Assembly (NCBI GenBank): GCA_027459485.1 | Contig: DAIDIG010000003.1 | Location: forward strand, 124,001 to 188,000 | Reading direction: 5' to 3' | Length of the DNA: 64,000 bases | DNA from: Bdellovibrionales bacterium | Lineage (GTDB): Bacteria; Bdellovibrionota; Bdellovibrionia; Bdellovibrionales; UBA1609 | Shown: positions 18,476 to 34,374 of the stretch, one piece after another | Layout: each line of letters opens with the position of its first letter | How positions within the stretch are numbered: position 1 is the first letter of the stretch | Position numbers and translations under genes: made by a program | The notes under the pieces: generated by a model | Told to the model about the DNA's origin: nothing | Databases searched by the model: none | What the model saw: only the letters and a program-made list of their open reading frames with translations

Positions 18476-18760
18476 TTAAGCGACTTTTAGTTGAACTTTT
18501 AAACCGAGGTTTTGAGCAACGTCGATCAAGCGATCAGTCGAAATGCGCTGAAGATTGCCGTTTACAATAGCGGTGATGACCGTGCGGCCAACATGGGCTC
18601 GCTTTGCCGCTTCGACGTGGGTGAGATCTTCTTTTTCAATCAGACGTTTGATCGCTGAAATAAGCTGAACACGCATTTCAATTTTTGGAGCCTGAGATTT
18701 CGGCAAACCCAAAAGGTCGCAAAGCTCCTTTACATTTTTAGCTTCAAAGTAAGATTTCAC
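18476..18760 (-). CDS. higA: HigA-type antitoxin (XRE family)
   Basis: 94 aa. A helix-turn-helix of the HTH_37/XRE type occupies about residues 30-85: DLTHVEAAKRAHVGRTVITAIVNGNLQRISTDRLIDVAQNLG. The GTG start overlaps the toxin stop (GTGA), with AAGGAG 7 nt upstream inside the toxin gene, so translation is coupled. In this family the antitoxin binds the toxin and represses the operon through the palindrome upstream. Toxin-first order and sizes match higBA. A GTG start and the downstream position would keep antitoxin synthesis tied to toxin translation. Confidence 0.9.
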   Translation of the reverse strand: MKSYFEAKNVKELCDLLGLPKSQAPKIEMRVQLISAIKRLIEKEDLTHVEAAKRAHVGRTVITAIVNGNLQRISTDRLIDVAQNLGLKVQLKVA

Positions 18761-19077
18761 AACATCTCCTTCAGTCGCCTTTGGGCAATTTCAATATCAT
18801 GCCTTGGCGTCGATTGAGTCTTCTTATGCAAAAAGTGGATAACCAAAATCGCATCCTGGGATTTCACGTAATAAAAAACTCTATATTGTCCATGTCGATC
18901 CTTAATCCGGATCTCGTGAACGCCGTTCGCTATGTCTGGCATCGGTCTACTCACCGGCATACCAAGACTTTCGCCAGCCATCAGCAATGCAAAAAGCTCC
19001 GTGAGCCTCTGCCTCGTCGCCAGGTCCAGATCCCCCAATTCTTTCTCTACCTGTCGATGAACTCGAAGCCCCTCCAC
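18757..19077 (-). CDS. higB: HigB-type toxin (RelE/Gp49-like mRNA interferase)
   Basis: 106 aa of the phage-derived Gp49/HigB family: VHRQVEKELGDLD at the N terminus, LPVSRPMPDIANGVHEIRIKD-type core (GVHEIRIKDRHGQYRVFYYV at about 52-71), and ILVIHFLHKKTQSTPRHDIEIAQRR at the C terminus with the expected basic residues. RelE-fold toxins cleave mRNA at the ribosome. The start is a GTG 13 nt downstream of the operator palindrome. Together with the antitoxin it forms a bicistronic module of about 600 bp, which sits against the truncated end of a metalloprotease gene, consistent with acquisition by insertion. Confidence 0.9.
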   Translation of the reverse strand: MEGLRVHRQVEKELGDLDLATRQRLTELFALLMAGESLGMPVSRPMPDIANGVHEIRIKDRHGQYRVFYYVKSQDAILVIHFLHKKTQSTPRHDIEIAQRRLKEML

Positions 19078-19086
19078 GTGATCTTC

Positions 19087-19115
19087 ATAATGTCATAAAT
19101 ATATGACATTGTCAA
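19087..19115 (-). promoter_or_regulatory. higBA promoter with palindromic operator
   Basis: On the minus strand a perfect -35 box TTGACA (19110-19115) is followed after 17 bp by CATTAT (19087-19092). Between and partly over these lies the dyad ATGTCATA / TATGACAT with a 4-bp centre (19090-19109). Such placement would let HigA, alone or with HigB, block RNA polymerase. Confidence 0.75.
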
Positions 19116-19118
19116 TAG

Positions 19119-19355
19119 TATCACTTCCGCTCGTCATATGTCGCTCTCATACACGAACTCGGTCACGCTTTCGGACTTTGTGACACAGATTATCCTAACG
19201 AATATAATTGTGATCCGAATTACATTTCAGTTGACCCATCGGAACAGCCTCCGAGCGTAATGAAAACTGCATCTTATTTTTATTTAACCCCCGATGACAT
19301 AGCCGGAGTGCGCGCCGTATTTAACCGGTATTCGTATCTCAGCCGACAAAATTGA
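19119..19355 (+). pseudogene. 3' remnant of a metzincin-type zinc protease
   Basis: An open frame of 78 codons begins after a TAG at 19116-19118 and ends at TGA 19353-19355. It reads ...YVALIHELGHAFGLCDTD, i.e. the HExxHxxGxxD zinc motif (HELGH at 19152-19166), and then SVMKTASYFYLTPDDIAGVRAVF, the Met-turn and closing helix of matrixin/M10-like peptidases. The upstream two thirds of such a gene (signal peptide, propeptide, catalytic sheet) are missing; the frame is cut where the higBA promoter begins. No ribosome site or start codon. I see no sign of the missing 5' part on the other side of higBA. Confidence 0.75.
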
Positions 19356-19494: not shown

Positions 19495-19647
19495 ATGCGG
19501 AATCCAGCCAACAATTGGAAGACCTGGATCGTCGTTGCTGCATCTTTAGCGGTCGTCTTATTTTTTCAAAACTGCGCTTCGTTGAGCCACACAGGCGGCG
19601 CGGCGAGCCCCTCGGTACACGCTGACACATCGAATTTGAGCCGATGA
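19495..19647 (+). CDS. 50-aa lipoprotein, translationally coupled to the methyltransferase
   Basis: The ATG at 19495 is preceded by GAGGTAGCCCC. The peptide starts MRNPANNWKTWIVVAASLAV, reaches the lipobox-like F-F-Q-N-C (Cys27), and ends after 23 more residues of low complexity (Gly, Ala, Ser, His). It is too small to hold a domain. The TGA stop at 19645-19647 overlaps the methyltransferase ATG at 19644 as ATGA, so translation is linked. The same Phe-Gln-Asn-Cys signature recurs in the lipoproteins downstream. It may be an outer-membrane or inner-membrane tag peptide; the function is unknown. Confidence 0.65.
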   Translation: MRNPANNWKTWIVVAASLAVVLFFQNCASLSHTGGAASPSVHADTSNLSR

Positions 19648-21029
19648 CAATCGCTGAAAAACTGCCGCTTGTTTGCCCTCGTTGTCGAAGCGGACTGAGC
19701 GAGTCGAATGCGGGGTCTTTCGACTATAAATGCGAAAAGTGCAAGGTTTCGTATCCGGCCATCGATGGGGTCCCGTGGCTGTTTCGATATCCCGATGCCG
19801 TGCTTGCACAATGGCTAAGCCGTTGGCAGCAGTTTCGCGCACAATTGAGCGCCCGTTCGTCAAAGCTCGATCAGTATCTAAAGAGCGAATTACTGGCGCC
19901 CACTCGTGTGCGGCTTACGCAAATTCAAGTAGCGCTGGCACACAACATCGCCACACTCGAATCGATTTTACATCCGCTGCTTGATCGGACCCCCGCCGAT
20001 GGGTCAAATCACCTCTTAGAAAAAGTGTCATGGACCCAACATTTCGACAGCTACTTCAATAATATCTTTCGCGATTGGGGGATAATCGACGAAAATCTGG
20101 CGAGCGTTAATTTCGTGGCGCCCGAATCGCAGAAGATTGAAGGTTCAGTTTTGATATTGGGCTCTGGGGCGGGCCGTTTAGCCTTCGATTTGCAGCAGCG
20201 GTGGCAACCCGAAGTCATGTACTCCCTCGACATCAACCCGCTGCTGATGCTTTTACAAATGCAAATGTTCAGCGGAAAATCCGTCGAGCTGTACGAACTC
20301 CCCCGTCCGCCGCGAGACGCTGAACACGTCGCTGTTAAAAGAATATTGAAGGCACCAGCAATGCGAAGCCAAAACAATGCTTTGGTGCCAACCCAAAGGG
20401 CCTGGCACCTGTTGGCAGATGCGCGAAATGTACCGCTTCGCGATCACTGTATCGACGTATTGGTTACGCCGTGGCTCATTGATATTATGCCCGATCGCTT
20501 CGATATTTTGGCGCGACGCTGGAATCGACTTTTAAAAATCGGCGGCGAATGGCTCATTTTTGGGCCGCTTTCTTACAACACAAGCTCGTTTCACAACGAC
20601 CTTACAAGTCTAACCGAAACCGAAATTGCCGCAACTCTTGAATCCTGCGGATTTCAGGTGAGTGAAGTCAAAAGCAATCGCCTACCCTATTTGTCATCGG
20701 ATGCACATTCGCAAAAGCGTGAAGAAACGGTTTGGCTTTTTCGTGTTAAAAAAATTCGCCATGAAAAAGAGCCGCCTGCTGAAAATGTATTGCCCGAATG
20801 GATAATGCACGCCGATCGACCGATCCCCGTCGAGCCGTTTCTAATGGATCAATTGGGGACAGCCCGACTGCAGGCCGAAGCGATTTCTTTAATAAATGGT
20901 CAAAATAGTTTGCAAACTATATCTATGCAGCTCGCCGCACGCTATGGAGTGCCGCAAAATATCGCCTTAACCTCGATACAAAATCTGTTTTCGTCTCTAA
21001 TTGAGACTCGATTCGGTTCATTTCGTTAG
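19644..21029 (+). CDS. Trm112-like zinc ribbon / N2227-like methyltransferase / PqqD-like fusion
   Basis: 461 aa in three parts. Residues about 8-50 form a Trm112/UPF0434-like zinc ribbon: Cys11-x2-Cys14 and Cys30-x2-Cys33 followed by YPAIDGVPWL. Residues about 150-370 are a class I SAM methyltransferase resembling the N2227 (carnosine N-methyltransferase-like) family: VLILGSGAGRLAFDL, ADARNVPLRD, VLVTPWLIDIMP, LLKIGGEWLIFGPLSYN, then LTETEIAATLESCGF and NRLPYLSSD. Residues about 405-460 read like a PqqD-type peptide-recognition winged helix (SLINGQNSLQTISMQLAARYG...IQNLFSSLIE). The combination suggests methylation of a small molecule or peptide bound by the last domain; the substrate is unknown. 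It overlaps the 50-aa lipoprotein upstream. Confidence 0.75.
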   Translation: MTIAEKLPLVCPRCRSGLSESNAGSFDYKCEKCKVSYPAIDGVPWLFRYPDAVLAQWLSRWQQFRAQLSARSSKLDQYLKSELLAPTRVRLTQIQVALAHNIATLESILHPLLDRTPADGSNHLLEKVSWTQHFDSYFNNIFRDWGIIDENLASVNFVAPESQKIEGSVLILGSGAGRLAFDLQQRWQPEVMYSLDINPLLMLLQMQMFSGKSVELYELPRPPRDAEHVAVKRILKAPAMRSQNNALVPTQRAWHLLADARNVPLRDHCIDVLVTPWLIDIMPDRFDILARRWNRLLKIGGEWLIFGPLSYNTSSFHNDLTSLTETEIAATLESCGFQVSEVKSNRLPYLSSDAHSQKREETVWLFRVKKIRHEKEPPAENVLPEWIMHADRPIPVEPFLMDQLGTARLQAEAISLINGQNSLQTISMQLAARYGVPQNIALTSIQNLFSSLIETRFGSFR

Positions 21030-21179
21030 ACTTTAAACACTGTCGCTCGAGTTGACAGCGCAACTCAATTTAAACGCTCGTCGCCTGGCTCAACACTTGC
21101 AGTTAACTTTTACATACAAATGGCCGATAGGTTATCTGGTCGTTTGTCGTGTTTCAAAATAAAACGGGGGATAAACAAG

Positions 21180-23198
21180 ATGTCCATCATGCCGGCGATT
21201 CGAGAGATCAGACGCTACCGCATGCATTTGACTGTTGCGATTATCTCTTTGGTCACGATCACCTTTTTTCAGAACTGCTCTTCGGGTTTCAAATCGGTAG
21301 CGGGCGTCTCAGCCGAGGCCAGCACTTCGTATTCGCATAGCGGCTCGAACGGAGGTACCCCCCCCATCGTTAGCTTTACGCTCTCAGCGACGAATGTCGC
21401 GCCCGGCGCGAATGTCACTATATATGTGACCGCCGCTGCTCAGTCCAGTGGCGCCACCATTAAGCAAGTCGATATATTTGTAGGTGGCAACGACATTAAA
21501 ACTCTCATGTCATCGCCGTACAACTACACGATCAGCGAATCAACCGCTGGGCCGTACAGCATTTATGTAAGCGCCACCGACAGTATGGGTGGCGTCACCC
21601 AAACAGGATCGCAAACGTTAACCGTTATGTCCTCAAGTGGTGGTGGCGGGAGCGGATGCCTCGCTTCGAACTATCAGGCCCCAGTCTGGTCGAGCGGCCA
21701 GCAGTCTACGTATTCTTATAATATCGACTTATCGAATCAAATAGATACTTCAAATTTAGTTATCAACAATCTCGCCTTTAGCTCCGAATACACAGTGACG
21801 AACATCATGACTAAATCGAATGACAAAAACATAACCGTGACTGCCAATGCATCCAAAAGAATGCTGACAATTTCTCCCAGCAATGGGGTCGAATGCGCAT
21901 CCGGTACAGCAATCATTACTGCCCAACTTCAAGATCAGTGCTCCACTTTGCCGGGGTTTCAATACCCTGCTTCATCAACTAAAACATTTACGATCAATTA
22001 TCATAACACCTGCCCTTCGCAGACGGTGCTCACTCAATCGGCTCCAGCCTATCAAGAAGCCATGGGATCGCAAGTCGCCACGGACGGATCGGTGGTTGTC
22101 ATGACAGCTCCACAATATAGCGGCAATGGCCAGAAAAACTCGGGCGCTGCCTATATTTTTTCAGCTTCGACGGGGCAGCAACTCACGATGCTCACGCCAT
22201 CGTCGGTTGCGGATCAGAAAATAGATTCGGTGGCTATTCGTAACGGCACGATCGTATTAGGAACATATCCTTTGCCTGGGGTCAGCGGTGCCGTCTATGT
22301 CTTTAAGGGGTCTGGATCAAATTGGGCACTCGCGACGACAATTCAGCAGCCCTCGGTTTCGGGCCAATCCGGCCTGGACCCCTTGGATTTCGGAGCCTCA
22401 GTCGCAATTCTCAGCGACGGCTCAATTGTCGTAGGCGCGCCAGGTGAAGACGTCAACGGTCTTTACGAAGCTGGAGCCGTCTATATTTTCAGTGGCAGCA
22501 ACTACAGCCAAATCGCACACCTCACGGCAAAAGCGCCGGTTCAATTTGAAACTTTCGGCGCGAGCCTCGATGCGAGTGGGACAACCCTTGCAGTAGGCGC
22601 TCCATACGCCTCATACCAAGAAAGTTTAAGCACGACCGCCATCGGGTCGGCCTATGTATTCTCGGGTAGCAGCGGAAGTTCGCTCACCCAAACCGCACGA
22701 GCTTTATTGATGTCAACTAAAGCCAACGCCAGCGATGTGTACCAATTCGGTGCCTCTGTTAGCATCAGCGGATCTGAACTGCTCGTGGGCGCGCCAGAAG
22801 CAAACGGCGGCGGCATGGCTTACCTGTTTAATACAACCGGAAAATACGTCGGGGCCGTAGCCGAAACCAGCAAAGGCTCTTCGTCGGGCGACAAGTTCGG
22901 GCAGAGCGTTCAGGTCGACGCGAGCACCAACACATTGTGGGTTGGCGCCCCCGCTTTGAGTTCTGACACCGGCGCGATTTTCAAATTCTCAATTGGCAGT
23001 TCGACACCGAGCTACATGTTGACCTCAGAAAACTTAGCGAACCAGCCCCTCTATAGTACGACCGGCGGTCAATTCGGCGCGAGCTTCGTGGTGAACGGCG
23101 CGAATATGGCGATCGGGAGCCCAGGGTTCGCTGGTTTAGTTAATGGATCGCCGACTATTGTGAACTCAGGCATTGGTTTCGTAATGTCGACCCCTTAG
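21180..23198 (+). CDS. Lipoprotein with Ig-like domain and FG-GAP repeats
   Basis: 672 aa. The start at 21180 follows GGGGGATAAACAAG; an upstream extension of 20 codons has no ribosome site. The signal peptide ends in F-F-Q-N-C (Cys33). Residues about 65-160 form an Ig-like domain (PIVSFTLSATNVAPGANVTIYV). From about 300 on there are FG-GAP/integrin-alpha-like propeller repeats: MGSQVATDGSVVVMTAP, FGASVAILSDGSIVVGAPGED, FGASLDASGTTLAVGAPYA, FGASVSISGSELLVGAPEA, FGQSVQVDASTNTLWVGAPA and FGASFVVNGANMAIGSPGF, i.e. a seven-blade propeller. Such domains bind surface ligands. It opens the block of exported proteins that ends at 30414. Confidence 0.85.
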   Translation: MSIMPAIREIRRYRMHLTVAIISLVTITFFQNCSSGFKSVAGVSAEASTSYSHSGSNGGTPPIVSFTLSATNVAPGANVTIYVTAAAQSSGATIKQVDIFVGGNDIKTLMSSPYNYTISESTAGPYSIYVSATDSMGGVTQTGSQTLTVMSSSGGGGSGCLASNYQAPVWSSGQQSTYSYNIDLSNQIDTSNLVINNLAFSSEYTVTNIMTKSNDKNITVTANASKRMLTISPSNGVECASGTAIITAQLQDQCSTLPGFQYPASSTKTFTINYHNTCPSQTVLTQSAPAYQEAMGSQVATDGSVVVMTAPQYSGNGQKNSGAAYIFSASTGQQLTMLTPSSVADQKIDSVAIRNGTIVLGTYPLPGVSGAVYVFKGSGSNWALATTIQQPSVSGQSGLDPLDFGASVAILSDGSIVVGAPGEDVNGLYEAGAVYIFSGSNYSQIAHLTAKAPVQFETFGASLDASGTTLAVGAPYASYQESLSTTAIGSAYVFSGSSGSSLTQTARALLMSTKANASDVYQFGASVSISGSELLVGAPEANGGGMAYLFNTTGKYVGAVAETSKGSSSGDKFGQSVQVDASTNTLWVGAPALSSDTGAIFKFSIGSSTPSYMLTSENLANQPLYSTTGGQFGASFVVNGANMAIGSPGFAGLVNGSPTIVNSGIGFVMSTP

Positions 23199-23220
23199 GA
23201 CGTTTGGAAGGAAAAGAATT

Positions 23221-25533
23221 ATGTTACGACAAAAACTGACGAAAGATCTGAAAAAGACTCTGACGGTCGTGCTGGCTGTTGGCGCCGTCAGTGTTGTGCC
23301 CTCCACCGGATTATCGCTGGATGCTTACGGCAACGGCGACAAAACCGGCGTCGTGGCTCTTTATACATTTAAAGAAGGCAGCGGCAGCGTTGTTCACGAC
23401 CAGATTACGACAGGTGGAGCGTTAGATTTGAATATTTCGGGCACCTCTGGCTCCTACAGTTGGTCGTCAATGGGGCTTGATATAGATAGCCCACTGCAAG
23501 TTTTCGTGCAGTCGGCTGCTCCCGCCACTAAAGTCATCAACGCTTGCAATGCTTCAAATGCCATGACAATCGAAACTTGGGTTGTGCCCCAATCGCCTAA
23601 CCAAGCATTTTTAGAAAGCGACGGACCGGTGCGCATAGCCGCACTGACGGATGGCGTGCTCAATCAAGGCGGCATTTACTTAGGTGAAGGTTACAATGCC
23701 GGCGCCTTTTTTGATCTTGGCATTCATACAATGTGGGCCTCAAAAAACGGCGTTTACATGGAACAAGGCGAACAGTTTACGACAGACCCGAGCGATACGT
23801 CGATCGTGCGCGGCAACGAACAAGAACATATTATCGTGACCCGCGATAGCAACGGCGACGTCCAAATGTACGTCAGTAACTCAACCGGCGCACCTGTTCT
23901 TGAAATTCCGTTTGGTGGCGCGCCAGTGCCGAATGACAAAAACGGAAATTTGAAATTAGCAAGTGACGACTATCTCACTGTCGGTAACGACATCAACCCC
24001 GGCAGTACGCAATATCCGACCGTGACGATTGCCGGCGGCGGCCCTCAACCCATAAGCGATAAGCAATTCTTGGGTGAACTTCAAATGGTCGCGGTTTATT
24101 GTACGGCACTCACGAAGAACCAAGTATTGGGCGCGCTGGCACCGACAAATTGGTTAACGTCTTCAACGAATTACACCGTGAACCCAAACGCCCCCATTAC
24201 CCAAGCCCAACAGATGGCCGCTCTCATTTATGAACGCGTCGCGGGCGTCAAGCTCCCGATTGATCACCCGACGATCTTGCAAATGGCCAACATTCTCGCG
24301 GCCAACCCGACCGATATCCCGACGCGCATGCAAGCGGCGGCGATCGCTGCCAGCAGTCCGGCGTTTTACAATATCACTGTCAGCGATTTCGCGAAACCGA
24401 TGTCAAACATCGCCAATCTGACGCAAGTTCCGCTCAATGATTTTGTTGCGGATATTATCGGCGCCACTCGCGACGGTATGGATGCCCGCCAAATGCTCGA
24501 TGGCGACTACTACTATGTCGGCGACCCGACGAAGACGGCCGTGCCGGATGATCCGATTGCGTCGATCGCGCTTTCGAACAATCATTATGCCGCACTTGAA
24601 TCGGAAGGCTATGATCTCTCGAGCGTTTTACTCCAAAAGACCGGACAATTGTTTTACAACGGCCAAGGCGCTCTTGTGCCGGCCAATAAAGTCGGCGACG
24701 CCGGCGGTCTGCTCACGACTCGTCAGTTCGCATCGGAAGCGTACTCCGCCGGTACAAATCGGCGCGCGATTCGTTTCGCCTTCAATTCGTTTTTGTGCGA
24801 AGACATCACGCAATGGGCGGATGCGACTGCCCCCGATGGCTATGTCGGCCGAGATGTCGATCGCTTCCCGACCGGCGATCACAACGTTTATCTGACAACC
24901 TGTAAAGCTTGCCACGCTCAAATGGATGCCATGCGCCCGGCGTTCGCACACTTCACATTCGACTCAAATAAGGGGGGCGCCGACTATTTACAAGACGCGC
25001 TTCTTGTGTCGCAAGAAACTTCGTTCAGTACAAGCAATGGATTCTCGGCACCAGCACCGGCAGCGGGCGAAACCAACCAAGATGCCTTGAACGATCAGGC
25101 GAATGACGAAACGAATCCGTCGTTTATGGTGCAATCTCCTCTCGGCGTCTCAGCGAAGTACAATAAAAATACGTACGTCTTCCCGGCTGGATATCCGGTT
25201 CCGAACAATAGCTGGGTGAATTACACCAACCGCCCGGGTACGGTTGACCGCGCCTACTTTGGTTGGGCGCAGACAAATGTTCAAGGGGATAGCAGCATTG
25301 CGGGCCAAGGCGTCGGCGCATTCGCCGCGATGATCGCAAGTTCACAAGCGTATCCGAGATGTTTGGCACAACGAGTGTTTCAATCTGTGTGTAAGCGAGC
25401 GCCGGACCCGAACAGCAGCGCCGATCAAGCGCTTCTCACTCAAGTGGTCAACGCATTTACGACAACTGATCAATACAAATTGCAAACGCTGTTCGAACGC
25501 ATCGCCGTGCAACCGGATTGTTTGGGACAATAA
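23221..25533 (+). CDS. Secreted LamG-like protein with C-terminal heme-binding CxxCH motif
   Basis: 770 aa with ribosome site AAGGAAAAG and a long signal segment (residues about 8-33). A LamG/concanavalin-like domain covers about 40-300 (VALYTFKEGSGSVVHD, then MTIETWVVPQSP, and LGELQMVAVYCTAL). A helical domain follows from about 325. The C-terminal part contains RRAIRFAFNSFLCEDITQW and then Cys561-Lys-Ala-Cys564-His565, a c-type heme site, like the DUF1588/DUF1592 cytochrome-like modules of large secreted proteins in Planctomycetes and Bdellovibrionota. The likely location is the periplasm or cell surface. It precedes a small lipoprotein and a DUF1501-like protein, the usual partners of this kind of cytochrome protein. 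Confidence 0.75.
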   Translation: MLRQKLTKDLKKTLTVVLAVGAVSVVPSTGLSLDAYGNGDKTGVVALYTFKEGSGSVVHDQITTGGALDLNISGTSGSYSWSSMGLDIDSPLQVFVQSAAPATKVINACNASNAMTIETWVVPQSPNQAFLESDGPVRIAALTDGVLNQGGIYLGEGYNAGAFFDLGIHTMWASKNGVYMEQGEQFTTDPSDTSIVRGNEQEHIIVTRDSNGDVQMYVSNSTGAPVLEIPFGGAPVPNDKNGNLKLASDDYLTVGNDINPGSTQYPTVTIAGGGPQPISDKQFLGELQMVAVYCTALTKNQVLGALAPTNWLTSSTNYTVNPNAPITQAQQMAALIYERVAGVKLPIDHPTILQMANILAANPTDIPTRMQAAAIAASSPAFYNITVSDFAKPMSNIANLTQVPLNDFVADIIGATRDGMDARQMLDGDYYYVGDPTKTAVPDDPIASIALSNNHYAALESEGYDLSSVLLQKTGQLFYNGQGALVPANKVGDAGGLLTTRQFASEAYSAGTNRRAIRFAFNSFLCEDITQWADATAPDGYVGRDVDRFPTGDHNVYLTTCKACHAQMDAMRPAFAHFTFDSNKGGADYLQDALLVSQETSFSTSNGFSAPAPAAGETNQDALNDQANDETNPSFMVQSPLGVSAKYNKNTYVFPAGYPVPNNSWVNYTNRPGTVDRAYFGWAQTNVQGDSSIAGQGVGAFAAMIASSQAYPRCLAQRVFQSVCKRAPDPNSSADQALLTQVVNAFTTTDQYKLQTLFERIAVQPDCLGQ

Positions 25534-25577
25534 TTAGTCAGCGCTTGGCGGTTGGCCGCGTGCGCAGGGGGGATAAA

Positions 25578-26246
25578 ATGAAATGGTCGCGTAGAAAATT
25601 CAGAATTGCGCTCTCGCTCATAGCAGTGTCGAGCGTCGCCGCCTTTCTGGGCAACGCTTGTTCAGGCGGCTTTCAAGGCGCGAGCTCGGGCGCAAACTCT
25701 CTAGCCAGCGGCGGTGCTGTGATGGCCTGCCAAGAGCCAACGTTTCAAACTGTACCGGGTACAATCGCCGTCTCGATCGAATACGGCAATAACGTGCTGG
25801 CGAATATGCAATCGTGTCTCGGTCTCTCGAACACCGATTTGAGCCAGCAAACGCTCGATGAAAACGCGGCTCGACTGCCGAGCTTTTCACAAGCCGGGTA
25901 CGTCGGCGACCTGAACTCCGCCATGATGATGGGTATTGCCGCCGTCGCAATCGACGCTTGCAGCGATCTTGCCAACAAAGAAGCGGCGGAAGCGGCCGCG
26001 AACCGCAATTACTTTACGCAAGTCGATTTTACCCAATCGGCTATGACAACAGCCGCGATCGATGATTCGGTCAACCGCCTCGCCCGCGAATGTTGGCAGC
26101 GAACTCCGACAAGCGAAGAGTTGCAGATAATTGAAAGCGGCACGCAAGCCATGGGTTCGATCGGCGCACAGTATCAGGCAATCAACGTTTGCGCCTCGGT
26201 ACTCGCAAGCCTCGCCGGCGTTTCGAACCCTGCCGGCGTAATGTGA
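25578..26246 (+). CDS. Small exported lipoprotein-like protein
   Basis: 222 aa. The start at 25578 is set by AGGGGGGATAAA upstream. The N terminus MKWSRRKFRIALSL and hydrophobic stretch end at F-L-G-N-A-C (Cys28), an imperfect lipobox. The mature part is helical, Ala-rich, with two internal Cys and the helix repeats NKEAAEAAANRNYF and DDSVNRLARECWQRTPTSEEL, the latter resembling the helical segment found in secreted DUF1588/DUF1549-type cytochrome modules. It lies between the LamG/CxxCH protein and the Tat protein with short gaps, so it is probably part of the same operon. No specific family is recognised. Confidence 0.7.
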   Translation: MKWSRRKFRIALSLIAVSSVAAFLGNACSGGFQGASSGANSLASGGAVMACQEPTFQTVPGTIAVSIEYGNNVLANMQSCLGLSNTDLSQQTLDENAARLPSFSQAGYVGDLNSAMMMGIAAVAIDACSDLANKEAAEAAANRNYFTQVDFTQSAMTTAAIDDSVNRLARECWQRTPTSEELQIIESGTQAMGSIGAQYQAINVCASVLASLAGVSNPAGVM

Positions 26247-26277
26247 TTTTTTTTAATTAAGGAATTTGGGGGAAGCC

Positions 26278-27693
26278 ATGATGTTCTTTAAAAAGCTCAA
26301 AGATATGTCGCCTGAAGAAATTCAGAAGCAAAAAAACCTCGACACCTGGCAGAGGTTGCACGGCAAAGCGATCACCCGCCGGCAACTTCTCGCGGCGGGG
26401 GCAATCAGTGGCGGAGCCTACATGGTTCTACCCTCGCTCTTTTCGCTCATAAGCCCGTCGACGGCGGAAGCCGCTTCGTGCGGTAGCTCCGGCCTGCCCG
26501 CCTTCATCACGGTCAACCTTGATGGTGGGGCGTGCCTCGCCGGTAACGCCATCATGCTCGATGGCGGCGGCAACATGCTGCCGGACTACGGTTCGGTTGG
26601 CATGGGCACGACGCCTACTCCGGTTCAGATGTTCGGCACAACAGGACCATCGTTCGCGTCAACGAGCGGTTTTTTGGCGGGTCTTCAAGCCTCTATGAAA
26701 CCGGCGACGATAGCCAATACGACGATGATTACTGTCGCGGTTGCAAGTAACGACGATACGGCCTCGAATCCGCTCGACCCGACTCCCCTTGTAGTCTCGG
26801 CCAATAGTTCAAAAGATATATTGCCGCCGCTTGGTACTAACCGCAACCAACCTGCCGTGTTGCCGATGACACCGACTCTGGCGGTTGGCTCGCTCAGTGA
26901 TATTCAAAATGCGCTCACAGTTCAAGGCGCAGTAAAAAGTTTAACGGCCTCGCAAAAGGCCACGATTTTTCAAAATATACAGAATTTATCCGCAACCCAA
27001 GCTCGCAACTTGGCCAACGTGTCGGGAGCTTCGTTACTCGGCGCGCTCGGCACAAGCGCGACAGCGACCAACACCGGCCTTATTAGCGGCACCAACACCA
27101 ATACCGACCCGCAAACCAACACCGCACTGAAAACAGTTTGGAACAACTTTCAAGGTCAAGATCTTCGCGATGCCGCTGTTGTTTACAACGCGCTTATGGG
27201 CAATGCGATTTCGGCGTACATTGAAATGGGCGGATACGATTATCACGGCACAAGCGCGCAAAACGTCCTCACACAAGACACGAGTGCCGGTACAAAAGTC
27301 GGCAGGGTCCTCGAAACGGCGGCCACTGTCGGTAAACCGATTTTTGTCGTTGTAACGACAGACGGCTCAACAGCTGCACCTCCGTCATCGGGCCCGACTC
27401 CACCGAGTGGAGACAAAGGTACGCACGGCACACTTTTTGTGTTCGCGTATCACCCCGCCGGCAAACCCGTCGCCACTAAAACTCAACTCGGCGCTTTTAA
27501 ATTCGGAGGCACCGATTTGGGGGTCGACACCTCAACAACCATTGGCGGAAGCCCGAGCCTCGCCATTGGCGCGATTGTCGCCAACTACATGAATTGGGCG
27601 GGCGTCGGGGCCAATGCACCGAACGTCTTGAACAATGCGCTGAATAGCCAACAGCTGCCTCCGCTCATGGTGCTGCAACCGCAAACCGGCTAG
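26278..27693 (+). CDS. Tat-exported DUF1501-like protein
   Basis: 471 aa. The start ATG at 26278 has GGGGGA 5 nt upstream. The N terminus is helical and charged, then carries a twin-arginine signal TRRQLLAAGAISGGAYMVLPS near residues 33-51, so it is folded before export. The rest resembles the DUF1501/sulfatase-like fold: FITVNLDGGACLAGN at the start, MGGYDYHGTSAQN near residue 325 in the place of the family's Gly-x-Asp-x-His motif, and IFVVVTTDGS later. DUF1501 proteins are encoded beside large secreted c-type cytochrome-like proteins, as here, and their activity is unknown. The four Cys in the family core are not evident. Confidence 0.72.
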   Translation: MMFFKKLKDMSPEEIQKQKNLDTWQRLHGKAITRRQLLAAGAISGGAYMVLPSLFSLISPSTAEAASCGSSGLPAFITVNLDGGACLAGNAIMLDGGGNMLPDYGSVGMGTTPTPVQMFGTTGPSFASTSGFLAGLQASMKPATIANTTMITVAVASNDDTASNPLDPTPLVVSANSSKDILPPLGTNRNQPAVLPMTPTLAVGSLSDIQNALTVQGAVKSLTASQKATIFQNIQNLSATQARNLANVSGASLLGALGTSATATNTGLISGTNTNTDPQTNTALKTVWNNFQGQDLRDAAVVYNALMGNAISAYIEMGGYDYHGTSAQNVLTQDTSAGTKVGRVLETAATVGKPIFVVVTTDGSTAAPPSSGPTPPSGDKGTHGTLFVFAYHPAGKPVATKTQLGAFKFGGTDLGVDTSTTIGGSPSLAIGAIVANYMNWAGVGANAPNVLNNALNSQQLPPLMVLQPQTG

Positions 27694-27728
27694 CCGAACG
27701 GGAAAAAATTTAGAAAGGGACGTTTACC

Positions 27729-29669
27729 GTGATGACTAAAGAAAAGAATTCGACAATTGAGGAGCGAGTTGCGACCGTCAAGTTGCGGCTCCGCTCCGTC
27801 TTTTTGTTGGCTGTCGGCTTTTTGACCCTGACTCTGCTCTATAGCAACTGCTCCGCCCAGCACGGCGGGGCCAATATGAGCTCCGCCTCAAGCGCCTCGA
27901 TTGCGGCGGCAAACTGCAGCCTTACTGGAGCTCAACAGCTATTTCAACTCACCTACTACCCGTTTTTGCAAACGAACTGTTCGTCTTGCCACTCGGCAAC
28001 CGGCGAAGCCGCCGGCACTCCCTTCGGCGATTCTAATATCGTTTCAGCCTATTCTTCGTTTATGTCTGAAACCGCGCAAGGCACCGATCTGACGAAGATT
28101 AATAATTACGCTGTCGGCGAACCCGATATGATTCACGTGCCGCCGGCCGCCGGCCCACAGTTCGCGACTCAGATCAATGATCTTGGCGCTACTCAACAGT
28201 CGCAGTGGCAAGTCGGCATCAATGAGCTGAAAGGCTGTGGCAATACGCAATTCTTGGGCGATCAGTACCAGGCGACCCGCACCTGGTTGATCAGTAAACC
28301 CATTGGATTTTCGGCACCCTCGCAAATCGGCACCGCATTTGAGAACGTCGGCCCTTGCACCGACACCAATAATGCCGCTGGTTGCAGCCAGACTGTCGAT
28401 TGGGACCTCAGCCAGTTGTCAGAAGTGGCGCGCACTCCGGTCGGCACGTGCGCCAGTACCAGCAATGCCCAGGGATGTTGGCCGAACTTACCCGGAGCGC
28501 ATTTTGAAATTGACCTTCAAGCCTTCGCGACAGGAGACGAATCCGAATACATTATTCGCAATCCGCGAATCGTGTATCCATCGCCCAATTCGAATGCCGT
28601 CAATTTCACCGCGCACAGTATTCAAGTCAAAATCGACGGGCAGGTGGTCGTCAACGAAACGACATTTCAATATGTCGCTGGTGCGGTTTATAAGAGCCTC
28701 GCCACTAATTACTTATCCGTCGGCGCGATGGCTGATCTTTCTAACATTCGCAAAAGCGACGTAATTTCAGTTTCATTTGGCGATATCGACACGACAACGG
28801 CGTTGCCGCCGATCCCAGCGCCGCCAACCGTCACCTTGAGTTTAGCATCGGATTCACTCACAAAACCGAATGGGTTGGCTTCACCGGTTGTTAAGCAGGT
28901 CAAACTTCAATTGAGCAACCCGTCTAATCTGTTCGTGAACGTACCGATCAATATCGGCGCCGACATAGCGGCGGGCGATGCCGTTCCACCCACTCTCACA
29001 ATGGCGGTGCCGGGTACTGACAACGGCAATGGTAAGCCGATTCAAATCCCATCGTTTTTAATCGACTATCAAATCACCGGGGATACTGTCGCACCATTTA
29101 CAGGCCCCGTTTTGGATTCCAACACTTCGAACCAAGTCGATGCAATGGTCACAATTTTGCCAGGCATGACGAGCACAACTTTGAACATTTCCGTTATCCC
29201 GAACGATCGGTACGAAAACAACGGTCAAGGGACTCACGTGCGACTTGCGATCGATTCAAATCAAAATGGCAATCAGTTGGGAACTCTCAGCACAGGCATT
29301 ACAGTGGCAAACGCGAATTATAACTTGAGTATTGCGAACTCAAGCACGCAACCAGCCGCGAACGCTGTCACGTTGACTCAGCTTCTATCGCCTGGCGGCG
29401 CCTTTTACGATAATTGCATCGAATGCCATTACCCAAACCCAAATGCCAGTCCGCCATTCAGTCAACCTCTCAACAATTACTCGATGACTGTTTACTCGTC
29501 CCTTATGTCGGCCAACCACTTCGTGCCCAATAACACGAACGCCAGCGTGGCTTGGCAGTTGATAAATGGGTCAACGCCGCAAATGCCTCTCAACGGATTA
29601 CTCCCGCAAGGTTCAAATTATTACCTCCAGATTTACAACTGGATCATGGCAGGAGCGAAAAATGACTAA
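27729..29669 (+). CDS. Lipoprotein with two CxxCH motifs
   Basis: 646 aa. The GTG start at 27729 (an ATG follows directly) lies downstream of AAAGGGA. After a cytoplasmic stretch and a transmembrane signal the lipobox-like L-Y-S-N-C gives Cys41. Heme-binding motifs are Cys84-Ser-Ser-Cys87-His88 near the N terminus and Cys563-Ile-Glu-Cys566-His567 near the C terminus, each within a short cytochrome-c-like segment. The middle region (about 300-520) consists of beta-sandwich domains (VTLSLASDSLTKPNG, Calx-beta-like). The arrangement of terminal CxxCH domains around a beta middle resembles planctomycetal cytochrome proteins. It overlaps the next gene by 8 bp. Confidence 0.8.
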   Translation: MMTKEKNSTIEERVATVKLRLRSVFLLAVGFLTLTLLYSNCSAQHGGANMSSASSASIAAANCSLTGAQQLFQLTYYPFLQTNCSSCHSATGEAAGTPFGDSNIVSAYSSFMSETAQGTDLTKINNYAVGEPDMIHVPPAAGPQFATQINDLGATQQSQWQVGINELKGCGNTQFLGDQYQATRTWLISKPIGFSAPSQIGTAFENVGPCTDTNNAAGCSQTVDWDLSQLSEVARTPVGTCASTSNAQGCWPNLPGAHFEIDLQAFATGDESEYIIRNPRIVYPSPNSNAVNFTAHSIQVKIDGQVVVNETTFQYVAGAVYKSLATNYLSVGAMADLSNIRKSDVISVSFGDIDTTTALPPIPAPPTVTLSLASDSLTKPNGLASPVVKQVKLQLSNPSNLFVNVPINIGADIAAGDAVPPTLTMAVPGTDNGNGKPIQIPSFLIDYQITGDTVAPFTGPVLDSNTSNQVDAMVTILPGMTSTTLNISVIPNDRYENNGQGTHVRLAIDSNQNGNQLGTLSTGITVANANYNLSIANSSTQPAANAVTLTQLLSPGGAFYDNCIECHYPNPNASPPFSQPLNNYSMTVYSSLMSANHFVPNNTNASVAWQLINGSTPQMPLNGLLPQGSNYYLQIYNWIMAGAKND

Positions 29670-30414
29670 AACTCATTTAAGACATCGTTTGATCATAACC
29701 ATATTTTTAATTGCACCGACAATTATTATGTTTCAGAACTGTTCGGCCAGTCATGGCTCAGGCGGTCTCAGCGCTGCATCAATGGGTAGCGGTGTCATTC
29801 AAACTGTTTGTATCCCAGCCGCCCAAAGCATCGTGAACGCGAATCAACAAGCCGCATTGACTTTGGTTCAATCGAAGTGGCCGACTCCGCCAGCAGGGTC
29901 AGCGGAGGCCAATGCGGTTCCCGACATTGTTTCATGCGTGCAAACAAATGGAGCGCAAGGTTGCCCTGGTGAAGTTTCCGCTAACCAACCACAGAATTCA
30001 GATCTCTATCAAAAGGTCGTGGATGGCATTTGGCCAGTCGGCGGCTCGCAATACTCAGCGTCTGACATCGCAACCCTTCGCGACTGGATACTCGGGTCGC
30101 AAGTAAGTTGCGATACGCTTGCGGCCGGACCTGGTAACCCAAACAGCGGCGGCAACGGTGGTGGCAGTGGCACAAGCGCTGCTACTTTTACACAGGTGAA
30201 TAATCAAATCATTCAGCAGTATTGTATCGGGTGCCATGGCAATGGTGGAATTTCACCGAACCTCACGACCTACGGCAACGTCGCGGCTAGCGCCAACGCC
30301 TGCCTGAGCGCAATCCAATCCGGTGGGAATATGCCCCTCGGTCAACCGCCTCTGTCTCAATCGCTGCAAACTTTATTTGCAAACTGGGTAAACGGCGGCG
30401 CGAAAAACGATTAG
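29662..30414 (+). CDS. Lipoprotein with C-terminal cytochrome-c-like CxxCH motif
   Basis: 250 aa. The start at 29662 lies 8 bp inside the preceding gene, with AGGAGCGAAA as its ribosome site; an upstream in-frame extension is a shadow. Signal peptide with I-M-F-Q-N-C (Cys27). The body has four further Cys at about 48-135 and ends with Cys188-Ile-Gly-Cys191-His192 in the phrase QYCIGCHGNGGISPNL followed by MPLGQPPLSQSLQTLFANWVNGGA, a normal cytochrome-c-like C terminus with a Met ligand candidate. It is the last gene of the 19.5-30.4 kb block and ends in NGGAKND, like the previous protein, whose C-terminal tail AGAKND has the same form, suggesting paralogous C-terminal domains. Confidence 0.8.
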   Translation: MTKTHLRHRLIITIFLIAPTIIMFQNCSASHGSGGLSAASMGSGVIQTVCIPAAQSIVNANQQAALTLVQSKWPTPPAGSAEANAVPDIVSCVQTNGAQGCPGEVSANQPQNSDLYQKVVDGIWPVGGSQYSASDIATLRDWILGSQVSCDTLAAGPGNPNSGGNGGGSGTSAATFTQVNNQIIQQYCIGCHGNGGISPNLTTYGNVAASANACLSAIQSGGNMPLGQPPLSQSLQTLFANWVNGGAKND

Positions 30415-30419
30415 CAGGG

Positions 30420-30444
30420 GCTCTCGAGAGAGCGAATTTTTTTT
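30420..30444 (+). terminator. Rho-independent terminator after the exported-protein block
   Basis: Stem GCTCT (30420-30424) and AGAGC (30429-30433) with a 4-nt loop, then GAA and a run of eight T (30437-30444), just after the stop at 30414. Confidence 0.75.
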
Positions 30445-30922: not shown

Positions 30923-31651
30923 GTGTCACAAATCCCGCACGCTGTCGCCCCTACATACCCCGGCCGTTGCAGTCGCTGCTATATGCGCAGCGAAGTGTGC
31001 ATTTGCGACTTAATTCCGGTGATTCACAATGAGACACCGCTCACGGTTCTCATGCACCATCGCGAAGCCTACAAGACAACCAACACCGCCAGAATTGCGT
31101 GCTTGGCGCTTGAGAATAGCTCCATCCACTTTCGGGGCCTGCCGCAATGGAAGACAATTCCAGGTTTGCCGACCGAGCTCATCCGCGACTTCGATCACCA
31201 ACCCATTCTGCTCACGCTCAGCGACCGAAGCGCCGTGCTGTCGAAGGATTGGCTCGCCCGGTTTGAAAAACCGGTTCACTTGATCGTGCCCGACGGCAAT
31301 TGGCGCCAGGCAAATAAAATGGGCAAGCGCGAACCCGAGCTTAAATCAATACCGTGGGTGAAATTGCCGCCCGGGCCGCCGTCGCGTTACCGGTTGCGCC
31401 ACGAACATCATCCAGAGGGGATGTCCACTCTCGAGGCGATCGCTCGCGCATTGGGGATTATCGAATCACCTGAAATTCAGCGGCAACTCGAAGACATTTT
31501 CGAGACCATGGTCGCGCGCACTCTCTCGACTCGACCACCGATGAGGCAAACGGCGTTGAATTTAAATTACACTTCAGAAATGCCGATAATCCAGCCGGAT
31601 GGGATGGCAGAAACTCAAGCAACTTCTCGGGATTCGGATCACGCCGGTTGA
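30923..31651 (+). CDS. tapT: tRNA-uridine aminocarboxypropyltransferase (DTW domain)
   Basis: 242 aa of the DTW family. The N-terminal zinc-type motif CSRCYMRSEVCICD is followed by TVLMHHREAYKTTNTARI and the signature PDGNWRQANKM (Asp-Gly-Asn-Trp instead of the usual Asp-Gly-Thr-Trp), then LPPGPPSRYRLRHEHHPEGMSTLEAIARAL. Bacterial members transfer the 3-amino-3-carboxypropyl group of SAM to U47 of tRNA (acp3U). The first codon is a GTG without a clear ribosome site; a later start would remove the Cys cluster. The C-terminal 20 residues are read in the overlap with the PilZ gene. Confidence 0.85.
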   Translation: MSQIPHAVAPTYPGRCSRCYMRSEVCICDLIPVIHNETPLTVLMHHREAYKTTNTARIACLALENSSIHFRGLPQWKTIPGLPTELIRDFDHQPILLTLSDRSAVLSKDWLARFEKPVHLIVPDGNWRQANKMGKREPELKSIPWVKLPPGPPSRYRLRHEHHPEGMSTLEAIARALGIIESPEIQRQLEDIFETMVARTLSTRPPMRQTALNLNYTSEMPIIQPDGMAETQATSRDSDHAG

Positions 31652-32327
31652 CGCCGACGATGCATCTATACAGCAATTGGTGAGCAAAAACTTACCGAAT
31701 CGCCGGCAGAACTTTCGCGTGCAGTATCCGAAGATCGGCGCGGGCGGGCCCTTCCCCCACGTCTACATGATCGATACCGAAGTGCTTATCGCTAACATCA
31801 GCGCCGGGGGGTGCCTTGTCATTGACGACACCGATCGATTAGGTTCGACCGTCGGCGAAATTATCCCTCTTGATTTTGTTTGGCCGACCGGCAGCATTCG
31901 AAAACGGGCGCGGATTGTGGGAGTAACCTATGACAACCGCCACCTTCAGTTTGTCGACTTTAATGCCCAGTTCTTTCTGCAAATCAATAAGCTTGTGCCA
32001 CCGGCGATGCTCGGCAACAGCTTTCATCAGGTCAGCAACAAGTCGGGCTATTTGGCCGCCGCCGAAATGTGGACATCCCAAAGCAACAATACGCTCGTTT
32101 TTCATCATGACGGCTTAGTCGAACTGACATTCGGCGGTGAAAAAATACGGTGGGGGACGGCCAACGGTCGCGACACGAAAATGAACTTGGCGCAATTGTC
32201 ATATATTTACGTAGTGCTCGCCAATATGCCGAGCCCGAGTCAACGCCTCAATTTACTCATTGAGAAATTGGCGACGCAAATCGCAGTCCTCGAGTACGCG
32301 CAAAAGAAAGACGGCACCGATGGTTAG
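31599..32327 (+). CDS. PilZ-domain c-di-GMP effector
   Basis: 242 aa, soluble. The PilZ signature is visible as RRQNFRV near residue 35 (Arg-x3-Arg) and ANISAGGCLV near residue 66 (Asn-x-Ser-x2-Gly), with the barrel strands following (RKRARIVGVTYDNRHLQFVDF). The second half (about 140-242) is unassigned. It overlaps the preceding gene by 53 bp and the next gene by 8 bp, which points to one transcript and to joint function with the double cyclic-nucleotide-domain membrane protein. Both read nucleotide second messengers, so the pair may join c-di-GMP and cyclic-nucleotide signals. Confidence 0.85.
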   Translation: MGWQKLKQLLGIRITPVDADDASIQQLVSKNLPNRRQNFRVQYPKIGAGGPFPHVYMIDTEVLIANISAGGCLVIDDTDRLGSTVGEIIPLDFVWPTGSIRKRARIVGVTYDNRHLQFVDFNAQFFLQINKLVPPAMLGNSFHQVSNKSGYLAAAEMWTSQSNNTLVFHHDGLVELTFGGEKIRWGTANGRDTKMNLAQLSYIYVVLANMPSPSQRLNLLIEKLATQIAVLEYAQKKDGTDG

Positions 32328-34374
32328 ATTCGAAACATTTCGCCCTCAATTGAAATCGGGTCAGCTCACTCCGCAAGGCGAAAAAATCGTTTTTGAACTC
32401 GATCCGCCGAATCACGATCAGATCATTCTCCCGTCGGAAATGACGGATTTCTTACTCCTCTGCACAGGTGAACACACAGTCGGTGAGATCATCGAAATGC
32501 TTTATCACCGTAAGGGCACGATTAAATTCAAATCCATCTATCGCACCCTTCACTATCTCACTCAGCGCGGATTTCTCGAAAATACACACCCCTTCAACGA
32601 AAACGATGAAACCGAAGCGGAAAATGAATTTCGGTTTCTGACGTTTCGCCCCCCGCTTGAACTCTCAATCGGCCGGCGAATTGTGAATGACCGCGAGCGG
32701 CCGCTCGGCTTTTACACGGTCTCGATGTTGATTCTCATCTTTTCAATTCTCAGCTTTCAGTTTTTTTCTCCACAATGGTTGAGTCTGTCGTTTCTATCCG
32801 TCAACGGTTCGTATTGGCGCGGGCTTATCTATTTGTTTGTTGCGGCCTCGATTCTCCTCTCGATCAAAGGGCTATTGAAATGCCTTCTCTTGCTGCTTTT
32901 GACTGGGCGCGCTTACAATTTCGGATTTGTCTTTAACTGGTTCGCAGCCTATTTTCGAGTACGATCGGATTCGCTGTTTCTCGTTAATAACCGTCTCTAC
33001 TTGACGTTATTTCACGCGACGATGGCTCTGGTTTATTTTCCGATTGTGGCCTTCGGCTATTATCTTTTTCCCCACATCCCGGCGCACGGATCAGCCTATT
33101 CACTCGCCCTTTTTCTTTTTCTGCTCGAGCTCACTCCCTATCAAGAAAGCGAGTTCAACGATCTTTTTCGCTCGTATTTCGAAGACGATACAGTAAATAA
33201 ACTCTCGAATTACTTTAAACCCCGCCCCCTATTTTCGCTGGTGCACCCTTTCGAACGGAATCGCGACTACAAACTATTTTTTCTCTTTACTCTCTTTGCG
33301 CTCGGATGGAGCGGTTTTGTACTATTCATACTTAGCTGCGCGACGCACGTTCATTTTGCCAATATGATGAGAACGCTCACTCACGGCACAGTCCTCGAAC
33401 GTGAGGCCGTTATGATTTCTCTCAGCCTTCTTGGCACATTTGGGTTGAGCACCACGTACAACGTTTTGCGATTGGTGTATTCGGCGATGATCCAACCCAT
33501 CACGCGTTTCACAATGAAAGCGGCGCAGAGCCGCAGGTCGTTCAAACTTTCTAGCAATAACCCAAAAGAAATTTTAAGCATTCTCGAGAGCTTACCTCTC
33601 TTTAGTTACCTAACAGTTGAACTCCTCACCACAATGGTGAACCGCAGCGAATTAAAGCGATACAAGCGCGGCGCACCAGTGGTCATTCAAGGCGGCGAAG
33701 GTAGATATTTGTACGTCCTGCTCTCCGGCGGGATGAACGTCGTCAAACGCTTGCCATCAGGACGAGCGAAAACTATGGGTGAAATTTTTCCGATAAGCAT
33801 TTTTGGCGAAATTTCCGTTATCGCCGAGACCTCGGCGACTGCAAGTGTTATCGCTCGTGAAGAAAGCGTCGTCCTCGAGATCCCCGCCGACACTCTTCGC
33901 CAGGTCGCCGGTGAAGTGCAGTACATTCGCGAACTCGAAAGCTTTCGCGGGGCCATCATGGTGAATCAATTTTTCACGTCCGCTCCGGTTTTTCGCGATT
34001 TGCCGGATAACATCATTCAGATGTTCATCACAAAAGGTAAAATCGAATCATACGCAAAAGAAGATATCATCTTTCGTCAGGGTGATTATGGCGACGAGTT
34101 TTACCTCATTCTTCGCGGTAGCGTAGGGGTGAGCGTAAACGGCCGCCCGATTTCAAAAATCCAACAGGGCGGCTTCTTCGGCGAAATTTCGATGATTGCG
34201 GATGTTCCCCGCACCGGCACCATTCACGCACTTGAACCGACCCAAGTCTTAAAAGTCACACGCGACGCATTCTGGGAGATACTGGCTCACGATATCACAA
34301 TTGCCATGTTTATCGAATCCGTTGGTGAAATGCGCGTCCGCGAAGATATAGAGATTATACGAACTGTCGCTTGA
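32320..34374 (+). CDS. Membrane protein: PqqD-like domain, M50-like membrane core, two cyclic-nucleotide-binding domains
   Basis: 684 aa. The start at 32320 overlaps the PilZ gene stop by 8 nt; a 20-codon extension upstream is a shadow. Residues about 10-95 form a PqqD-like winged helix (LLCTGEHTVGEIIEMLYHRKG...TLHYLTQRGFL). Five or more transmembrane helices span about 125-420. Their order resembles the M50-like membrane peptidase/exporter proteins that follow PqqD domains, but no HExxH or NPxxxxDG motif is present. Two cyclic-nucleotide domains close the protein: about 425-540, and 550-670 with RQGDYGDEFYLILRGSVGV and FGEISMIADVPRTGTI. The second keeps the phosphate-binding Arg; the first (FGEISVIAETSATAS) lacks it. 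Function unknown. Confidence 0.75.
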   Translation: MVRFETFRPQLKSGQLTPQGEKIVFELDPPNHDQIILPSEMTDFLLLCTGEHTVGEIIEMLYHRKGTIKFKSIYRTLHYLTQRGFLENTHPFNENDETEAENEFRFLTFRPPLELSIGRRIVNDRERPLGFYTVSMLILIFSILSFQFFSPQWLSLSFLSVNGSYWRGLIYLFVAASILLSIKGLLKCLLLLLLTGRAYNFGFVFNWFAAYFRVRSDSLFLVNNRLYLTLFHATMALVYFPIVAFGYYLFPHIPAHGSAYSLALFLFLLELTPYQESEFNDLFRSYFEDDTVNKLSNYFKPRPLFSLVHPFERNRDYKLFFLFTLFALGWSGFVLFILSCATHVHFANMMRTLTHGTVLEREAVMISLSLLGTFGLSTTYNVLRLVYSAMIQPITRFTMKAAQSRRSFKLSSNNPKEILSILESLPLFSYLTVELLTTMVNRSELKRYKRGAPVVIQGGEGRYLYVLLSGGMNVVKRLPSGRAKTMGEIFPISIFGEISVIAETSATASVIAREESVVLEIPADTLRQVAGEVQYIRELESFRGAIMVNQFFTSAPVFRDLPDNIIQMFITKGKIESYAKEDIIFRQGDYGDEFYLILRGSVGVSVNGRPISKIQQGGFFGEISMIADVPRTGTIHALEPTQVLKVTRDAFWEILAHDITIAMFIESVGEMRVREDIEIIRTVA

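Follow-up and report, generated by a model that had tools for sequence, protein, structure and literature searches.

We found that eight genes of a Bdellovibrionales genome of 2.75 Mb form a real single unit, whose core keeps its composition and order across Bdellovibrionota, and that this unit is a divergent version, with its parts split, of the planctomycete-type PSCyt/PSD systems with DUF1501 or DUF1552 partners. We further propose, with a probability of roughly 50%, that these products would assemble into an envelope complex in which a Tat-exported protein with a phosphatase fold (D1501) acts as catalytic or binding partner, and that a methyltransferase (MT) would mature this protein before its export. 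The window, i.e., the whole stretch of 64,000 nucleotides that was analysed, contains all eight open reading frames on the + strand, as the earlier note on this DNA had claimed.

The first gene (19495..19647) encodes a putative lipoprotein of 50 aa with the motif FFQNCA and overlaps the start of the MT gene by ATGA. MT (19644..21029) is a CARNMT1-like SAM methyltransferase with LGSGAG at 20157-20174 and LIDI at 20475-20486; its N-terminus is zinc-ribbon-like, and its C-terminus is putatively PqqD-like. It is followed by FG (21180..23198, in a reading frame that opens at 21120), a lipoprotein with an Ig-like domain and an FG-GAP repeat propeller (Pfam matches FG-GAP_2, 1.2e-29, and Big_7, 6e-6; FQNC at 21267-21278), and by LC (23221..25533), in which a ConA-like lectin (LamG-like) domain precedes a DUF1588/DUF1585-like domain with CxxCH at 24901-24915. 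P5 (25578..26246) is a lipoprotein with a divergent DUF1595 (PSD5)-like domain. D1501 (26278..27693; RR at 26377) is predicted to be a Tat-exported protein of the alkaline phosphatase superfamily fold with degenerate DUF1501-like motifs, and its DYHG motif (27238..27249) joins a near-universal DYH to a Gly that tracks MT. The last two genes encode c-type heme lipoproteins, namely C7 (27732..29669), with two CxxCH motifs (27978-27992 and 29415-29429), and C8 (29662..30414), with one (30223-30237); the likely start of C8 lies within the end of C7, giving an overlap of 8 bases. The starts given here for FG, P5, D1501, C7, and C8 are corrected, likely starts, and all these features lie on the + strand. 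The 50-aa lipoprotein was not found at the equivalent place in other loci, where the upstream neighbour of MT is often a directly adjoining CxxCH lipoprotein (C8).

Several properties that had been ascribed to the block could be examined at this level. The c-type heme motifs in three proteins were confirmed (LC one, C7 two, C8 one; four in all), and so was the single Tat-route protein, D1501, whose twin-arginine signal is invariant in 33 aligned members. A uniform lipobox was not observed: FQNC occurs only in the 50-aa reading frame, FG, and C8, while C7 and P5 have SNC and NAC, respectively, and LC and D1501 are without a lipobox. FQNC was also ruled out as a shared mark of the block, since it is used genome-wide, where it is over-represented (G000; 26 pattern matches vs. 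8 for the reversed control). Residue +2 of the lipoproteins is Ser or Ala, which gives no inner-membrane retention signal under the E. coli rule. As for the terminator at the block end, a candidate intrinsic one is present on the + strand (30420..30443, GCTCTCGAGAGAGC followed by a T run), with a short stem and T8 immediately behind the last stop codon; such sites, however, are no commoner than chance in the region (18 observed vs. 17.9 expected from shuffles). A phage origin of the block was rejected, as no PHROG match was obtained. Upstream, at 18500-19354 (+), a zinc metalloprotease (HELGHAFGLCDTD...) is preserved only as a remnant, with a frame broken by stops upstream; this is probably either a pseudogene or the result of an error in the assembly. 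Downstream, a DTW-domain gene (30923-31651) lies close to a gene for a 704-aa protein with two cyclic-nucleotide-binding domains (32260-34374).

The neighbourhoods gathered in related genomes, with D1501 as bait, gave 56 loci for comparison. P5 directly preceded D1501 in 53 of them; 52 had LC close by on the upstream side and 49 had a cytochrome downstream, and several of the missing neighbours coincided with contig ends. The order LC, P5, D1501, heme lipoprotein(s) was syntenic across Bdellovibrionota, including locus L127 (in a genome of 3,782,950 bases, where the core lies at about 2,433,966-2,440,310), and the core genes were linked in relatives rather than scattered. In a set of 242 Bdellovibrionota genomes, each at least 90% complete, 116 had D1501, 115 had LC, and 112 had both, leaving 7 discordant genomes (p = 9e-60). 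About half of this phylum of predatory bacteria has the core. The complete set, in the order FG-LC-P5-D1501-C7-C8-MT, also exists in another family (L130, L133, L134, and L135). The lectin domain and FG-GAP are missing from much of the phylum, including the L127 genome, while the core is retained, and the FG-GAP propeller, the lectin domain, and the methyltransferase are accessories to this core. The absence of FG, the lectin domain, and MT from many relatives is what might be expected if unrelated exported genes merely happened to lie on one strand; such chance neighbourhood has a negligible probability, and for the core it stands refuted by the synteny that more than 50 loci across the phylum show and by the co-occurrence of LC and D1501. 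The unit is better conserved than the earlier reading, made from one sequence, could know.

Some loci showed additional features. Tandem module copies occur at L114 and L142, where Calx-beta repeats and cytochrome-type segments are joined to P5 in single proteins (916 aa, at L114, and about 1,800 aa). In one family (L109, L111, L112, L124, and L125), the module has a further conserved pair of genes at its side; one product is about 386 aa long and has one CxxCH, and the other is about 370 aa long. No biochemical data on any member of the module were found, and no literature was found on B. bacteriovorus HD100 locus numbers estimated from position.

No Pfam name was assigned to LC, P5, or D1501 of the window, and the kinship of the block emerged from their aligned relatives. 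DUF1585 (PSD2, PF07624) was matched by 22 of 31 LC members (best E 2.2e-7), although the LC of the window had no match to it in the Pfam search, and DUF1588 (PSCyt3) was weakly matched by 5 of the 31 (best 0.009). CxxCH was invariant in the 31 aligned LC members, Laminin_G_3 was present in 6, and PSD4 was not detected in LC by Pfam. For P5, DUF1595 (PSD5) was weakly matched by 3 of 28 members (best E 0.005). With signal peptides removed, the LC profile matched the PSCyt3-PSD2 part of canonical fused proteins (E 5.9e-10), and the P5 profile weakly matched their N-terminal PSD3-PSD5 part (E 0.003); the best values against twenty shuffled targets, used as a control, were 0.085 for LC and 0.12 for P5. 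A relative of C7 (L127:7072-8331) matched PSCyt1 (E 8.5e-4). A terminal W..GA motif, considered as a shared feature of the cytochromes, was present in only 20 of 85 and was dropped. Canonical PSD3-PSD5-PSD4-PSCyt3-PSD2 fusions beside DUF1552 exist elsewhere in the phylum, and one genome (G035) has nine DUF1552 matches, an expansion of the canonical system; no PF07586 (DUF1552) match was found in the genome of the window.

Based on these domain matches of LC, P5, and the C7 relative, the block is a split form of a kind of system that is known, very numerous in several phyla, and of uncharacterised function in the literature (PMC5615132). The likeness to the DUF1501/cytochrome pairs of other phyla had been rightly recognised, the parts being of PSCyt3/PSD2, PSD5, and PSCyt1 type. 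The suggestion of an undescribed system is not supported for the kind, because the block belongs to the PSCyt/PSD systems; what is new is the split, divergent Bdellovibrionota version. The N-terminal domain of LC models as a ConA-like lectin fold with jelly-roll Foldseek matches. Kinship to sialidases, tailspikes, and clostridial neurotoxin binding domains, and with it a toxin relationship, was rejected, since these matches reflect only the ConA-like jelly-roll that the N-terminal lectin domain shares with them. The sequence search of solved structures with LC and D1501 gave nothing meaningful.

D1501 itself can be called DUF1501-like by fold and motif order only, as far as the predicted model and the alignment indicate. 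None of 33 D1501 members matched Pfam DUF1501 (PF07394), which also had no match in the genome of the window, and in the profile-profile comparison D1501 without its signal peptide reached only E 0.006 over 32 columns against DUF1501 and E 0.32 against DUF1552; membership of either family was therefore rejected. For the AlphaFold model (pLDDT 79), the best Foldseek matches listed were all of the alkaline phosphatase superfamily (alkaline phosphatase, sulfatase, phosphoethanolamine transferase, or phosphoglycerate mutase folds), but with E values of 0.008 and worse. The order of the motifs is that of DUF1501 (GG, then GG.D.H, then D.G). Of the DUF1501 motifs, only GG, GG.D.H, and the Asp of DHG are retained; D1501 no longer has the Asp of GGxD, EFGR, or the DHG His. 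The predicted fold and the motif order agree with the DUF1501-like label given by the earlier note, but no Pfam score does. Given the loss of the GGxD aspartate and the DHG histidine, D1501 may be non-catalytic. D325-Y326-H327, D338, D366, and D383 were kept in all 33 aligned members, and a recognisable DYH was absent from more distant copies (L116, L117, and L118).

The methyltransferase (METHYLTRANSFERASE) matched the carnosine N-methyltransferase structure 5yf0 in the PDB over 275 positions (E 2.9e-18), and all 8 MT members contained a CARME domain, which identifies MT, at the level of homology, as a relative of the histidine N-methyltransferase CARNMT1. PqqD (PF05402) was found at the C-terminus in 4 of the 8 (best E 7.4e-4); the MT of the window had no match to it. 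Strong MT matches occurred in 29 of the 242 genomes, 28 of which also had D1501 (Fisher p = 4e-9), and comparison of coordinates placed MT within about 10 kb of the module in 22 of the 29. The methyltransferase is thus indeed coupled to the module, but it does not generally lead it: MT is last or on the other strand in most linked loci. Since it stands at the front in the window and last in the full sets of the other family, its leading position is a local arrangement. A search beside MT for a conserved small lipoprotein that could be its substrate found none.

Scanning the residues of D1501 for those that track MT pointed to the position directly after DYH. It was Gly in 21 of 24 MT-linked D1501 copies vs. 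11 of 82 others; among 1,596 column-residue tests, this one had the top rank (phi 0.68, mean 0.12). Second came residue 380, where a Trp, three residues before the conserved D383, is lost with MT, and then residue 334, within the DYH loop. Five genomes had two D1501 copies, one with G and one with D; in the three of them with a linked MT (G181, G184, and G186), the linked copy was the G copy. After correction for phylogeny, support for the association was only suggestive: the sign test gave about 5-6 pairs for and 0-1 against, with p between 0.03 and 0.69 and a median that was not significant. Exceptions were also seen, with N or R in the presence of MT (L138, L140, both L142 copies, and L146-L148) and with Gly in its absence (L115, L121, L161, and L163; also L021, an incomplete genome). 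A column of P5 reached phi 0.67 in a smaller set. LC was dismissed as the target of MT, as no column exceeded phi 0.45.

The mechanism that we favour would then run as follows. Tat substrates fold in the cytosol, and D1501 would do so too. Where MT exists, it would mature the active site of D1501 there, before Tat export, most simply by N-methylating the DYH histidine. Once exported, D1501 would associate, in the periplasm or the outer membrane, with the heme lipoproteins and with LC/P5, whose catalytic or binding partner it would be. The LC heme and the lipoprotein cytochromes C7 and C8 would deliver electrons to it or take them up from it. A sugar-containing substrate or partner might be held by the FG-GAP protein and by the lectin domain of LC; that the substrate is sugar-containing material is a guess, made because of the lectin domain. 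The sharpest version, in which a CARNMT1-type enzyme methylates the DYH His before Tat export to give an exported methyl-histidine active site, and MT-less lineages use an N/D-type loop instead, appears unlikely.

A possible but weaker alternative keeps a Bdellovibrionota-specific module of PSCyt/PSD type with cooperating parts and makes MT a cytosolic accessory that acts elsewhere than on D1501. Its target could be, for example, a small peptide held by the PqqD-like domain or the 50-aa lipoprotein. The PqqD-like C-terminus found in half of the MT members (4 of 8) is typical for peptide-binding enzymes, and lipoproteins are at hand, of C8 type beside MT in many loci and of 50 aa in the window. 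However, the strongest MT-associated changes of D1501 fall within its own motif loops, and MT is not accompanied by any conserved gene for a small peptide.

Two further readings concern what the complex does, and both appear unlikely. A carbohydrate-processing redox complex, with LC and the propeller holding a polysaccharide or prey-wall sugar that D1501 and the hemes oxidise or desulfate/dephosphorylate, would agree with the ConA-like lectin domain in LC and with the PSCyt proteins of Verrucomicrobia, which have Laminin_G_3 domains and for which a role in carbohydrate metabolism was suggested (PMC5615132). Yet the lectin domain and FG-GAP are precisely the parts that much of the phylum dispenses with, the module showed neither a glycosidase nor a transporter, and D1501 is without motif residues expected for hydrolysis. 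The absence of the Asp of GGxD and the His of DHG, both known from DUF1501, would suit a structural scaffold for envelope maintenance, in which D1501 is a dead phosphatase-fold binder and the hemes have a structural or redox-sensing role, with no electron flow to a substrate. But the retention of DYH and several aspartates in 33 of 33 members is above expectation for a dead scaffold, and we regard this reading as somewhat less probable still than the carbohydrate one.

The envelope complex that we prefer is of interest because its parts are in separate genes and the phylum has a genetically tractable member; each part can therefore be deleted or purified alone. Moreover, the link to MT makes a concrete chemical prediction, i.e., a modified histidine in one protein.

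Among the known systems closest to the block are the planctomycete-type PSCyt3 systems, in which a fused PSD3-PSD5-PSD4-PSCyt3-PSD2 protein (DUF1587/1595/1592/1588/1585) stands beside a DUF1552 (HXXSHH) Tat protein. It shares with them the PSCyt3-PSD2 module, the c-type heme motif, the lipoproteins and exported proteins, and an adjoining Tat-exported partner. In contrast to them, its PSD5-like and PSCyt3-PSD2-like parts are encoded by separate genes whose order is permuted, its partner is not DUF1552, and the heme domain is in separate lipoproteins. With the DUF1501 systems, which include DUF1800 or PSCyt2/PSD1, it has in common the Tat signal and the GG ... GG[WYF]D.H ... D.G order, and D1501 may also have their alkaline-phosphatase-like fold, to which its predicted model points with Foldseek E values that start at 0.008. 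However, D1501 has no Pfam score and lacks the GGxD Asp, EFGR, and the DHG His, and its neighbour is PSCyt3/PSD2-like, not DUF1800 or DUF1549/1553. Finally, MT and CARNMT1 share the methyltransferase core, including the FIDT/LIDI motif, whereas MT adds the zinc-ribbon-like N-terminus and the putative PqqD-like C-terminus and is genetically tied to an exported module.
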